64,000 nt of DNA from Alphaproteobacteria bacterium SS10. GTDB taxonomy: Bacteria; Pseudomonadota; Alphaproteobacteria; TMED2. The notes beneath the pieces are model-generated. The model saw nothing but the letters and a program-made list of their open reading frames with translations, did not search any database and had not been told where the DNA came from. The DNA is taken from NCBI GenBank assembly GCA_019192455.1, contig JAHCML010000003.1, positions 415,294 through 479,293 of the forward strand, in the 5' to 3' direction. The translations under genes were made by a program, and so were the position numbers. Of the stretch, positions 36,834 to 44,919 are shown piece by piece. How positions within the stretch are numbered: position 1 is the stretch's first letter; the number at the start of each line of letters is the position of its first letter.

Positions 36834-37430
36834 TTAGATGATCAGTTTCACCGCGATGGTCAGCATGACCAGCCCGACAATCACGTCGAGGATGCGCCAG
36901 GCGGCGGGCTTGGCAAAGATGGGGCGAAGTAGGCTGGCGCCGTAGCCGAGGGCGAAGAAGAAGGTGAAGGATGCCGTGACGGCGCCGATGCCGAAGATCG
37001 CCTCTGCCCCCGGATACTGGGTCGAAATTGAACCCAGTAGGACCAGCGTATCCAAATAAACATGCGGGTTCAGCCAGGTGAGTGCCAGCGTGGTGCCGAG
37101 CACGGGCTGCCAGGCGCCGGGGGCCTTATCCGCCGGGTTCAGGGCACCACCTGGGCGGGTCGCCGACCAAAACGCGCGCAGGCTATAGACCAGCAAGAAC
37201 GCGGCACCACCATAGCGGAACGCAGGCTCAATCCATGGGGCATTGGCGGTGATCGCGGCAAAGCCAGCGACACCGGCGGCAATCAGCAGCGCATCAGATG
37301 TCGCGCAGGCAAAGCACACCATCATTACATGCTCACCCCGCAACCCCTGACGCAGAACAAAAGCGTTCTGCGCGCCAATCGCGATGATCAGGCTGAGGCC
37401 GAGAAAGAAGCCGGGGAGGAATGCACTCAT
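36834..37430 (-). CDS. argO: LysE/ArgO-family basic amino-acid exporter
   Basis: Inner membrane exporter of 198 residues with six hydrophobic segments. FLPGFFLGLSLIIAIGAQNAFVLRQGLRGEH is the LysE/ArgO pattern in overlapping short motifs (IAIGAQNAF, LRQGL), and LTWLNPHVYLDTLVLLGS is the second block. In E. coli ArgO exports arginine. I start at ATG 37430 (MSAFLPG), since a further upstream in-frame start would reach into the promoter. It diverges from an ArgP-like LysR gene, the classic regulator-exporter arrangement, which strengthens the assignment. Confidence 0.88.
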   Translation of the reverse strand: MSAFLPGFFLGLSLIIAIGAQNAFVLRQGLRGEHVMMVCFACATSDALLIAAGVAGFAAITANAPWIEPAFRYGGAAFLLVYSLRAFWSATRPGGALNPADKAPGAWQPVLGTTLALTWLNPHVYLDTLVLLGSISTQYPGAEAIFGIGAVTASFTFFFALGYGASLLRPIFAKPAAWRILDVIVGLVMLTIAVKLII

Positions 37431-37538
37431 GGGGCCTTGGTCGTGTTTGTATTGATAGCCGATGGATGGTTTCAGATATCGCGATGCCGCTCGATAAGTT
37501 AAGCTCAAAAATCTTTTGTTCGTTTAGAAAATCTAACC
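37431..37538. promoter_or_regulatory. Shared argO/argP-like control region
   Basis: A 108-base divergent intergenic region between an exporter and its probable LysR regulator. The motif AAAATCT occurs twice 20 bases apart near the regulator start, and the stretch between is AT-rich. LysR regulators usually bind dyads with a T-N11-A core here, but I could not define a single site with confidence. Confidence 0.4.
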
Positions 37539-38438
37539 ATGTTGGATTACCAGGCCCTCTCGGCCCTCACCGCCATTATCCGCACCGGCAGCTTTGAGAA
37601 GGCAGCGCGTCAGCTTGGTGTGACCCGCTCGGCTGTTTCCCAACGCATTCGCCAGCTGGAGGAGCGGATGGGCACCGTGCTGATCAAACGCGGCCAGCCC
37701 TGTACGGCGACCGAGGCTGGGCATCGCCTAGTGCAGCATGTGGGTGAGGTTGAGCTTTTAGAACGGGCGGTGCAGGGCGACCTTGGTGAACCGGCACCGC
37801 TTGCCCAGGCCACCACGGTTCGGATCGCGGTGAATGCCGACAGCCTTGCCACCTGGTTCGTTGCGGCCCTCGCCGAGGTTGACGGGCTGCTGTTCGATCT
37901 AGTGGTGGATGATCAGGATTACAGTGCCGACTGGCTTGCCAAAGGGGAGGTGGTGGCGGCGGTTAGTAGTCAGGCCAAACCGGTTCAGGGCTGCGATTGT
38001 CGTCCGCTCGGCGCGCTGCGCTACGTGGCGACGGCGAGTCAGGGCTTTATCGATAAATGGTTCGCTGACGGTGTGACTACACAGGCGTTAGAGCGGGCAC
38101 CCAGCATGGTGTTCAACGTGAAGGACCGGTTGCAGGATAACTGGGCGCAAAGTGCGGTGGGGGCGGAGCCTGTTCTGCCGAGCCATTTTCTACCCTCAAC
38201 GCAGGCGTTCATTGATGCCGCCCAGGCTGGGCTCGGCTGGGGCATGAACCCAGAGGTGCTGGTACAGCCCTTGATTACCGATGGATGCCTTGCGGAGTTG
38301 GTGCCCGGCCATCCGCTGGATGTGCCGCTCTACTGGCATTGCAGTCGCCTGGCGGCCCCGGCCTTAAGCGATCTAAACAAGGCCGTTCGGGAGATTGCGC
38401 ACGCTAAGCTTGAACCCCTCGAGGATCAGTTGGATTAG
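37539..38438 (+). CDS. argP: LysR-family regulator, ArgP (IciA)-like
   Basis: 299 residues. The N-terminal winged helix contains FEKAARQLGVTRSAVSQRIRQLEERMGTVLIKR, with the ArgP trait of starting at LDYQALSALTAIIRTGSFE. The C-terminal periplasmic-binding-like effector domain follows from about residue 90. In E. coli ArgP activates argO in response to arginine, with lysine antagonism. The divergent LysE/ArgO gene is its obvious target. ArgP-like proteins also act in Corynebacterium (LysG), so the effector may be lysine or arginine. Confidence 0.88.
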   Translation: MLDYQALSALTAIIRTGSFEKAARQLGVTRSAVSQRIRQLEERMGTVLIKRGQPCTATEAGHRLVQHVGEVELLERAVQGDLGEPAPLAQATTVRIAVNADSLATWFVAALAEVDGLLFDLVVDDQDYSADWLAKGEVVAAVSSQAKPVQGCDCRPLGALRYVATASQGFIDKWFADGVTTQALERAPSMVFNVKDRLQDNWAQSAVGAEPVLPSHFLPSTQAFIDAAQAGLGWGMNPEVLVQPLITDGCLAELVPGHPLDVPLYWHCSRLAAPALSDLNKAVREIAHAKLEPLEDQLD

Positions 38439-39419: not shown

Positions 39420-40265
39420 CTAGTGGTTTAGGAACTCATCCCGGGTGATCTGCCGGTCGTAATTGGCATCCATGGCGGCAAACTCGGCACGGACCATCCG
39501 CTCCATAGCCTCTGGCCCGTCATCCTCAACATTCTCTGCCGCTTCTAGCGCCTGGATCGTGTTGCGACAGGTCGGGCTTAGCTCGGCGAACTCATCCTCC
39601 TCATCGAACTCTTCTGAGGCCTCGGCGGCTTCCTCTGCAATGTCAGCCTCGATCATCTGCCGGAACTCGGCGATTTCAATCCGGCCATCACCGTTCATAT
39701 CGACCTCGGCGAAGAATTCGGTCCGCTCTGCCTGTTCGATGGCGATTAGCTCGGGGTAGCTCAAGCGTTGGTCGCGGTTCCGATCCATTTCGGCAAAGTC
39801 TTCCCTGATCCAGTCCATCCCCTCGGACAGTTCTTGCTGGAACTCTGCCAGGATCCGTTGGGCATCATTAGCGCAACCATTGAGGCGCCCCATGGCCTGT
39901 ATCTCCCGCGCTTCCATCAGGTGCTCCTGGCGGTGGAAGGCTTCGAACTCACCGAACACCACCTGGCCATCGAGGTTCTGATCCATCTCTGAGAACCAGA
40001 CGCGCATCTCGCTCTGGGCCTGGGCACTTGATTGCCCGCCCAGCTGCCAACCAACGGTTAGGGCCACAATCGCCGCCGCCGCAATCGCGACCGGTTGATA
40101 GCGCTGCCAGGCCGATGGTTTTGCCAGCGGGGGCGTATTGGCGGTCTCAACCCGGCTGCGGATATACTCGCTCAAGCTTTGGCCAGCATCGGCGGCATCG
40201 GATGCCCAGCGCTGCTTGGTCTCCGGTGCGACGCGGAATTCAATGGTTTCGGTTTTCTTGCTCAT
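39420..40265 (-). CDS. RHH-like N-terminus, membrane helix and four EF-hands
   Basis: 281 residues with an unusual domain order. Residues 5-40 (FRVAPETKQRW...SLSEYIRSRVE) resemble the Arc/MobC-type ribbon-helix-helix fold. Residues 57-78 form one membrane helix. The rest holds four EF-hand loops: 95-106 (DQNLDGQVVFGE), 161-172 (DRNRDQRLSYPE), 189-200 (DMNGDGRIEIAE) and 266-277 (DANYDRQITRDE), plus an acidic run at about 210-228. Two Cys (131, 233) may pair. The predicted topology puts the RHH part in the cytoplasm and the calcium sites in the periplasm. The start at 40265 has GGAGG 8 bases upstream. Function unknown. Confidence 0.8.
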   Translation of the reverse strand: MSKKTETIEFRVAPETKQRWASDAADAGQSLSEYIRSRVETANTPPLAKPSAWQRYQPVAIAAAAIVALTVGWQLGGQSSAQAQSEMRVWFSEMDQNLDGQVVFGEFEAFHRQEHLMEAREIQAMGRLNGCANDAQRILAEFQQELSEGMDWIREDFAEMDRNRDQRLSYPELIAIEQAERTEFFAEVDMNGDGRIEIAEFRQMIEADIAEEAAEASEEFDEEDEFAELSPTCRNTIQALEAAENVEDDGPEAMERMVRAEFAAMDANYDRQITRDEFLNH

Positions 40266-40528
40266 GGCCAAATCCTCCATTCGCTTAAGCGGGCAGTTGG
40301 TGCGTTGCCAATCAGGTGGCGGTTATTAGAACTGCCGTTCAAAACTGCGCCCATGAGGCCGCAGCCCGGGCCCAAGTCGCAACCATTATCGTGCCAGAAC
40401 AGCGGCAAAATTTTGTCCGGACATAAGTTTTCTGCCGGTTTGCGCCTATTGGCGGGACTTGATTTGCGATCCAGTTGGTCCTTGCTGGCGTATTGAGGTC
40501 AGTTACTTAATGGACGAGATTTGGATGC

Positions 40529-41182
40529 ATGCCCTTCACACGTTTGTTTGCCTTTGCCGCGTTGACCGCCGGCATTCTGATCGCCTTAACATGGGGGCAA
40601 GCTGCCATGGCCGCTGATGCCGGACCGGCCTATGAGGTCACCCGCACTGTCGGTGATGTGGAGTTTCGGCAGTATCAGCCATCGGTGGCTGTTCAGGTGA
40701 CGGTGGCCGCTGACCGCGAGGCATCCTCCGGCCAGGCCTTCCGTTTTCTGTTCGATTACATCCGGGGCAATAATGGTGGTGATCGGAAGATTGCCATGAC
40801 CGCGCCGGTTACCCAAACCCCGACAGCTGGTTCGGATCTTGGAACAGAGATCGCCATGACCACACCGGTCACCCAGGTGCCGGAGGCAGAGGGGTGGAGC
40901 ATGGCCTTCTTCCTGCCGCGCGAGTTCACGCCGGACACGGCACCAATCCCCAATGATGACCGAATTGAGCTGTTAACAGTACCGGGCGATGAGCGCGTCG
41001 TGCTGCGCTTCTCAGGCCGACCAACGGATGAGCGGATGGCCGAGCGCGAGGCGGAGTTGCGTGCCTTCATCGAGGCCGAGGGTGTTCAAATTGAAGAGCC
41101 GGCCATCTACGCCATCTACAACGCGCCTTTCACCCCATGGTTCCTACGCCGCAACGAGGTAATGTTCAAAATCGCTGAATAG
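40529..41182 (+). CDS. SOUL-family haem-binding protein, secreted
   Basis: 217 residues with a signal peptide (about 1-28, ending AAMAA). The body matches the SOUL/HBP fold: YEVTRTVGDVEFRQY near the start, KIAMTAPVTQTP and again EIAMTTPVTQVP (the family's paired T-P-V motif), AFFLPREFTPDTAP, and NAPFTPWFLRRNEVM at the end. SOUL proteins bind haem or porphyrins; bacterial roles are poorly defined. Periplasmic location is predicted. It lies alone, divergent from the EF-hand gene, with a 263-base region between that shows no clear promoter. Confidence 0.9.
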   Translation: MPFTRLFAFAALTAGILIALTWGQAAMAADAGPAYEVTRTVGDVEFRQYQPSVAVQVTVAADREASSGQAFRFLFDYIRGNNGGDRKIAMTAPVTQTPTAGSDLGTEIAMTTPVTQVPEAEGWSMAFFLPREFTPDTAPIPNDDRIELLTVPGDERVVLRFSGRPTDERMAEREAELRAFIEAEGVQIEEPAIYAIYNAPFTPWFLRRNEVMFKIAE

Positions 41183-43821: not shown

Positions 43822-44919
43822 ATGACAGAAACGACGATTTTGAGCGGCACGCCGCGTGCTGCTGGCTTTTTCATGCCAGCGGAATGGGCACCGCATGAGC
43901 GCTGTTTCATGGCCTGGCCCACGCGTGAGAAAAGCTGGGCCAATAGTGATGGCGATATCGAAGCCGGCCGCGAGGCGGTCGCCGAGGTGGCAAAGGCCAT
44001 CTCCGCCTTCGAGCCTGTCACCATGATGTGCCGACAAGAGGATGTGGCCGACACCTCCATGATGGTGGGTAGCGGCATTGATATCCTGCCGGTTGATCTC
44101 AATGATTGCTGGACCCGGGATACGGGCCCGACCTTCCTATTGCATCCGGATGGCCGCCGTGCCGTTACTGATTGGGCCTTTAATGGCTGGGGCGGCCTGT
44201 CTGATGATTTCGACATGGATGCGGCCTTGGTTCAGGCCCTAGCGACCCGGTTTGACTGGGGTGTTTTTGAGTCGACACTGGTAACCGAGGGCGGCGCCAT
44301 TCATACCGATGGTGAGGGCACGTTGCTGGCGGTTGAGACCAGCCTTCTAGACCCAGCCCGCAACCCCGATATGGAACGCGATGCGGTTGAGCAAATGCTG
44401 CTCGACTACACCGGCGCTGAACGGGTGCTTTGGCTCTCTGAAGGGTTTGAAGAGGACGAGACCAGAGGGCATGTCGACAACATCGCCTGTTTCGCCGGGC
44501 CTGGGCATGTATTGTTAAACATGCCGAGCGATGAGGCAGACGCAAATTTCGCGATTGGCCAGGATGCCTTGTCCCGCCTGACACGCTCAGAGGATGCAAG
44601 AGGGCGCGAGGTTGAGGTGACCACCATCCCCCAGCCGAAGCCGATTTTTGAGGCCGGGCGCCGCCTTTCTGCGTCATACATCAATTTCTACCTGGCTGGC
44701 GGTGAAGATGGCGGCGGTGCGGTTGTGATGCCGAGCTTTGGCCAATCCACGGATGATGAGGCGGCAAAGCTAATCAGCGCGGCTTTCCCAGGCCGTGATC
44801 TGGTGCAGGTGCCTGCCCTCGACATTATTCGCGGCGGCGGCGGCATTCATTGCATTACGCAACAGCAGCCAGCCCTTCTGACAAATGAAACCGCCGAAAC
44901 CCCTGAAGAGAGCAGTTAA
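43822..44919 (+). CDS. aguA: Agmatine deiminase
   Basis: Hydrolyses agmatine to N-carbamoylputrescine and ammonia in polyamine synthesis or agmatine use. 365 residues of the guanidino-modifying fold. PAEWAPHERCFMAWP, NDCWTRDTGPTFL, WAFNGWGG, ETRGHVDNIACF and the active-site Cys344 in GGGGIHCITQQQP are all intact. The C-terminal tail is a short acidic extension. No aguB (carbamoylputrescine amidohydrolase) is in the window, so the next step is encoded elsewhere. Confidence 0.96.
   Translation: MTETTILSGTPRAAGFFMPAEWAPHERCFMAWPTREKSWANSDGDIEAGREAVAEVAKAISAFEPVTMMCRQEDVADTSMMVGSGIDILPVDLNDCWTRDTGPTFLLHPDGRRAVTDWAFNGWGGLSDDFDMDAALVQALATRFDWGVFESTLVTEGGAIHTDGEGTLLAVETSLLDPARNPDMERDAVEQMLLDYTGAERVLWLSEGFEEDETRGHVDNIACFAGPGHVLLNMPSDEADANFAIGQDALSRLTRSEDARGREVEVTTIPQPKPIFEAGRRLSASYINFYLAGGEDGGGAVVMPSFGQSTDDEAAKLISAAFPGRDLVQVPALDIIRGGGGIHCITQQQPALLTNETAETPEESS

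Follow-up and report, generated by a model that had tools for sequence, protein, structure and literature searches.

A putative autogenous RHH regulator carried by the precursor of an exported EF-hand protein in Alphaproteobacteria

The stretch of DNA analyzed here (the window; 64,000 nucleotides from Alphaproteobacteria bacterium SS10) contains an open reading frame of 281 amino acids at positions 39420-40265 of the minus strand. The ORF, Pfam matches and an AlphaFold2 model together define a fusion protein in which an RHH domain is followed by a hydrophobic helix and four canonical EF-hand loops. We judged the start at 40265 to be right because a Shine-Dalgarno (SD) sequence, GGAGGA (40273-40278), sits 7 nt before the ATG. 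The RHH domain (residues 3-43; 40137-40259) is connected by a linker (residues 44-56; 40098-40136) to the helix, which resembles a signal-peptide h-region (residues 57-77; 40035-40097; recognized in the sequence and in the model). Next comes AQA, a signal peptidase I-like site (residues 81-83; 40017-40025). Pfam, the family alignment and AlphaFold2 place the EF-hand loops at residues 95-106 (DQNLDGQVVFGE; 39948-39983), 161-172 (DRNRDQRLSYPE; 39750-39785), 189-200 (DMNGDGRIEIAE; 39666-39701) and 266-277 (DANYDRQITRDE; 39435-39470), and all of these features are on the minus strand. The AlphaFold2 model, computed with 16 family members as input (mean pLDDT 85), has the two RHH helices (residues 14-27 and 31-43), a long helix (residues 52-77) and four EF-hands. 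It is a monomer, in which the two-stranded RHH ribbon cannot appear. A fold search with this model returned only calmodulins, because the EF-hand part dominates the structure.

The neighboring genes in the window encode SOUL, YjbR and LysR-type proteins, along with ORFs that have no family assignment. A SOUL heme-binding protein with a signal peptide (40529-41182) is divergent from the RHH-EF gene and shares with it the intergenic region that holds the putative operator. Further away are a divergent pair of a LysE/ArgO-like exporter (assigned by eye) and a LysR-type regulator (36834-38438), and an agmatine deiminase-like ORF (43822-44919; also by eye). An exporter and a LysR-type regulator in a divergent pair are the classic arrangement for amino-acid export. 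No conserved neighbor genes were seen in 15 loci of the family, so the gene looks like a stand-alone unit. We rejected a type II toxin-antitoxin antitoxin, given the same lack of conserved neighbors: no small gene follows, and the convergent ORF of 299 amino acids has no Pfam match. A NikA-type mobilization accessory protein was also rejected, as there is no linked relaxase or oriT among the neighbors. When one of the Rhodobacteraceae members was used to search plasmids, nothing matched.

Profile searches revealed that the N-terminal part is a genuine RHH domain. PF21983 (NikA-like) matches residues 3-38 with 29.1 bits, above the gathering cut-off of 27, and a scan of the isolated segment raises this to 33 bits. 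A profile built from the RHH segments of 17 relatives matched the solved RHH proteins DinJ (E 0.0011), VapB26, MazE7 and NikA, and RHH_9 scored above gathering in a Hyphomonas relative. A strand and two helices, together with these matches, place the domain in the RHH superfamily; the sequence-only reading of this DNA had proposed an RHH-like domain at residues 5-40, and the profiles and modeled helices bear this out at residues 3-43. RHH proteins contact the bases through three strand residues, one at every second position. These are S3/D5/R7 in RelB (PMC2812701) and K18/V20/R22 in AmrZ (PMC3325190). Their equivalents in the window protein are residues 7, 9 and 11, namely T7, E9 and R11 (40233-40247, minus strand). 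All 17 aligned RHH segments have E9 and R11. We assign the three as probable base-contact residues from the equivalence, from this invariance and from the way the operator varies with residue 7, described below.

The C-terminal part is predicted to bind calcium through its four EF-hands. The 12-residue loops are canonical, with acidic ligands at both ends (D at position 1 and E at position 12), the match to PF00036 has an E-value of 2.5e-15, and the ligand positions are invariant or nearly so in the family. Nearly all members have an AxA motif after the hydrophobic helix, and almost all of 16 diverse members keep its -1 Ala (A83), although such motifs are common in Ala-rich sequence. For this reason we read the helix as an internal signal peptide rather than a plain anchor, with cleavage by signal peptidase as the inferred outcome. 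The sequence-only reading had placed a single membrane helix at residues 57-78; the helix itself is confirmed at 57-77, but its description as a membrane helix gives way to that of a probably cleavable signal peptide. A cysteine pair (C131 and C233) is conserved in members other than the Hyphomonas type, which fits an oxidizing compartment. The AxA motif and the cysteine pair support a topology in which the EF-hand part is exported and the RHH domain is cytoplasmic. The proposal of a kinase-free protein with the RHH domain inside and four EF-hand loops outside is supported. The order of DNA-binding domain, single helix and outer domain in one chain is confirmed, and the possible cleavage would part the two halves.

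We surveyed relatives to ask how widely this order occurs. A single-sequence search of genome contigs found none; an alignment-based query did find relatives. The order of RHH domain, helix and EF-hands recurs at 25-35% identity in more than 30 proteins, mostly from Alphaproteobacteria, and at this level of divergence its recurrence argues that the architecture is not due to chance. Members were found in Rhodobacteraceae, Hyphomonadaceae (Hyphomonas, Henriciella), Sneathiellales, Pelagibius, Nitratireductor and one Woeseiaceae MAG, whose copy (L026) may reflect transfer or misbinning. Occurrence is patchy, with 9 of 346 Rhodobacteraceae genomes and 14 of 105 Hyphomonadaceae genomes having a member, and none of the 185 genomes sampled from another class of the phylum contained a full-length one. 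Class-wide matches below 1e-8 were mostly EF-hand-only proteins without an RHH domain and were left out of these counts. An RHH-only match (L010) was dropped because it is a different RHH protein without a signal peptide or EF-hands.

Upstream of the window gene lies a palindrome, TGTCCGGACA (followed by CGAAA; 40414-40423), and a degenerate copy, TGTTCTGGCA (followed by CGATA; 40392-40401, minus strand), is located exactly 22 bp nearer the gene. The upstream regions of distant members have TGTCNNGACACGAAA in common, usually with a second, often degenerate, copy 22 bp on; in three loci (L021, L074 and L015), we observed three copies phased at ~22 bp instead of two. Each member has an upstream site, with the best match at 10-13 of 13 positions compared with a mean of ~8.3 for shuffled sequence. 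The 15-base match of the window gene itself (10 of 13) is among the weakest but contains the exact 10-mer. This 10-mer is found only once in the 3.19-Mb genome, as is a control pattern, so the count indicates no enrichment and it is the position that matters. A scan of the upstream region of the window gene for sigma-70-like promoters found none beside the operator.

The placement of the pattern across genomes points to the gene's own promoter. In 20 genomes, the 15-base pattern gave 14 matches against 1 for the control, and 11 of these were directly upstream of the gene. A scan of 105 Hyphomonadaceae genomes with the operator alone gave 13 matches against 4 control matches, and all 13 lie 41-104 bp before an RHH-signal-peptide fusion. 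The background was higher in 395 Rhodobacteraceae genomes (26 matches against ~20 for controls). There, 11 matches had a palindromic CCGG or CATG center and 7 of these lie ahead of the gene, compared with 0 of the 15 others.

The center of the operator follows residue 7 of the RHH domain. Members with S, T, Q or M at this position have CCGG, those with K have CATG and those with L have GGGG. Putative sites of the family include TGTCCGGACA in the window, TGTCATGACA, the one expected to suit K, and TGTGGGGACA. The residue-7 rule fits 42 of 43 members, the one exception being a protein with S at residue 7 and a CCTG center. Among 42 RHH columns, residue 7 is the best predictor: it gives the wrong center for 1 of the 43 members, whereas the baseline errs for 12 and the next best column for 4. 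To evaluate whether the correlation reflects mere ancestry, we examined it on two trees for which residue 7 had been masked. K together with CATG appears on at least four to five separate branches, so changes recur; independent contrasts are few (three on well-supported branches and five on all), and a sign test on them cannot reach significance. We regard the covariation as strong evidence for autogenous DNA binding, and the case for a one-residue recognition code, with its few independent contrasts, as strong but not closed. Taken together, the sequence comparisons suggest that the RHH front end very probably binds the promoter of its own gene. The DNA-binding idea of the sequence-only reading therefore appears firmer than it was proposed, since a specific operator upstream of the gene can be named.

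In most EF-hand members, a second ATG in the same frame lies 8-13 residues ahead of the helix, with an SD sequence in the linker. The mean SD duplex energy is -6.1 for this internal start, -5.3 for annotated starts and -3.4 for other internal Met codons. Of the glycine codons in the SD window, 19 of 21 are GGA; in the rest of these ORFs, the figure is 46 of 559 (Fisher p = 1e-17, with shared ancestry ignored). This bias indicates that the internal SD is selected, and the internal start probably gives rise to an RHH-free secreted form in most relatives. The linker of the window gene lacks this internal SD and ATG. There is no ATG at this place in the window gene or in a Henriciella member (L032), and Hyphomonas members have no internal ATG with comparable SD and spacing. 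Only the fused form can therefore be made from all of these genes, and the window gene appears to have lost the internal start or never had one.

The operator-only matches in Hyphomonadaceae also revealed that the RHH front end is not restricted to EF-hand proteins. The 13 matches lead four EF-hand proteins, eight TonB_C proteins and one protein with another, EF-less ectodomain. TonB_C was assigned with PF03544 for two scanned proteins (E 1.7e-8 and 1.8e-9) and by sequence likeness for the other six. All cargo types share the RHH domain, the operator and the signal peptide, and in most cases the internal start as well, which all eight TonB_C members have. The RHH-signal peptide-TonB_C fusions (L085:2094-2711, L086:2038-2688 and L089-L096) have the same operator and form a separate family. 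In the remaining fusion (L100, genome G270), the ectodomain has no family assignment, residue 7 is K and the operator has CATG. We also observed a second RHH-signal-peptide-EF-hand gene (L086:1079-1942; KKSESLDIR; operator TGTCCTGACA) just upstream of a TonB_C-type gene, in a genome with three such genes, one in L101 and two in L086. Because the same RHH domain, operator and signal peptide are found with TonB_C or a third ectodomain, calcium is not the shared principle, and the EF-hand part appears to be one cargo among several.

In our interpretation, the product of the window gene is an EF-hand protein made for export, and its precursor includes an RHH domain that regulates transcription of this same gene. 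We consider this likely because the RHH fold, the operator, the covariation, the export features and the conservation are several independent sequence tests. In this model, the RHH domain would stay in the cytoplasm, dimerize and set its two-stranded ribbon (T7, E9 and R11) in the major groove of TGTCCGGACA, and the second box, 22 bp or two turns nearer the gene, would also be part of the operator. It would control its own promoter, most likely by repression, a sign suggested by the action of other RHH autoregulators and by the position of the site. The helix would serve as a signal peptide or anchor for delivery of all four EF-hands to the periplasm, with signal peptidase probably parting the RHH half from the EF-hand half. 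The amount of RHH that reaches the operator could then depend on export or on what state the periplasmic domain is in; proteolytic release, tethering and calcium gating are possible routes for this feedback.

One such route would have signal peptidase cut at the AxA and an intramembrane protease (e.g., RseP) free the RHH stub, so that the freed dimer represses and the cell counts export with one repressor per exported molecule. That the -1 Ala following the helix is almost always kept, whichever ectodomain is present, speaks for this route, as does the control by proteolysis of the related membrane-bound regulators ToxR, TcpP and CadC (PMC7593790). However, the cleavage might merely serve the secreted short form, and we regard this route as tentative and somewhat unlikely. 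For members with an internal start, we lean slightly towards a plain secreted protein as the main product, with the long form as a minor product that represses its own gene and so limits the mRNA. The annotated-start-like SD energy of the internal ATG, the GGA bias and the consistent internal start in TonB_C members favor this division of labor, which is inapplicable to the window gene and not clearly applicable to the Hyphomonas/Henriciella clade.

The sequence-only reading favored a stable one-component calcium sensor, in which periplasmic Ca2+ binding alters the dimerization or geometry of the cytoplasmic RHH domain and thereby transcription. This is weakened, and we now think it unlikely: the same front end occurs with EF-less ectodomains, the signal-peptidase site is conserved, and the operator is found only at the gene itself, so no calcium regulon is visible. 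Arguing for a sensor are the four canonical EF loops conserved in one chain with the RHH domain, the window copy in which EF-hands are made only with the RHH domain attached, and a periplasmic EF-hand protein of Caulobacter that works in a Ca2+/pH-responsive regulatory loop (PMC13171946). RHH domains also mediate protein-protein contacts, and this one could be a dimerization remnant of a gene fusion, with the upstream palindrome belonging to another regulator. That seems very improbable, since the operator center tracks residue 7 of this same domain, the palindrome accompanies the fusion regardless of the ectodomain, and E9 and R11 are invariant. With a helix that looks like a cleavable signal peptide and an RHH-free form probable in most relatives, the protein may be a secretory precursor that regulates its own gene instead of a stable sensor spanning the membrane.

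ToxR, CadC and TcpP likewise have an N-terminal cytoplasmic DNA-binding domain, one membrane helix and a periplasmic domain, without a kinase. The window protein falls outside the ToxR-like winged helix-turn-helix (OmpR/PhoB-type) class, as its cytoplasmic domain is RHH. It also differs in that the helix ends in a signal-peptidase site, the operator is at its own gene only, relatives have an internal start for an RHH-free form, and different ectodomains occur on one RHH type. RelB/DinJ, AmrZ and Arc share the strand triad, the palindromic TGT-type sites upstream of their own genes and autoregulation, but they are soluble, whereas this RHH domain belongs to the polypeptide chain of a secretory precursor, with no toxin gene behind it. 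The closest profile family is that of the plasmid mobilization proteins NikA/MbpA (PF21983, NF041418); here, however, there is no oriT, relaxase or plasmid context, and the function is not conjugation. Caulobacter CaBP, calsymin and EfhP are also exported EF-hand proteins of Gram-negative bacteria, and CaBP and EfhP are reported to have regulatory effects, but none of the three has its own DNA-binding domain, and CaBP works with SigV. Among described cases in Alphaproteobacteria, the CaBP-SigV loop (PMC13171946) comes closest to linking a periplasmic EF-hand protein with transcription. In the open-access literature searched, we found nothing that joins RHH, EF-hand and transmembrane parts, nor a similar system, in agreement with the earlier statement that no described system with this order is known.

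What emerges is an apparent regulator of the transmembrane type with an RHH domain at its core; its named operator and one-residue code make it directly testable. Its swappable parts could be of use for synthetic membrane sensors. As a generalization that we hold to be plausible but short of probable, these fusions would form a modular class of secretion-coupled autogenous regulators. In such a class, an RHH repressor would act as an extended front of the signal peptide, be swapped together with its operator before unrelated exported proteins, often beside an RHH-free product, and signal to its own promoter that its cargo is being exported. The recurrence of this front end on different cargoes suggests that bacteria have a general means of tying the transcription of secreted proteins to their own export.
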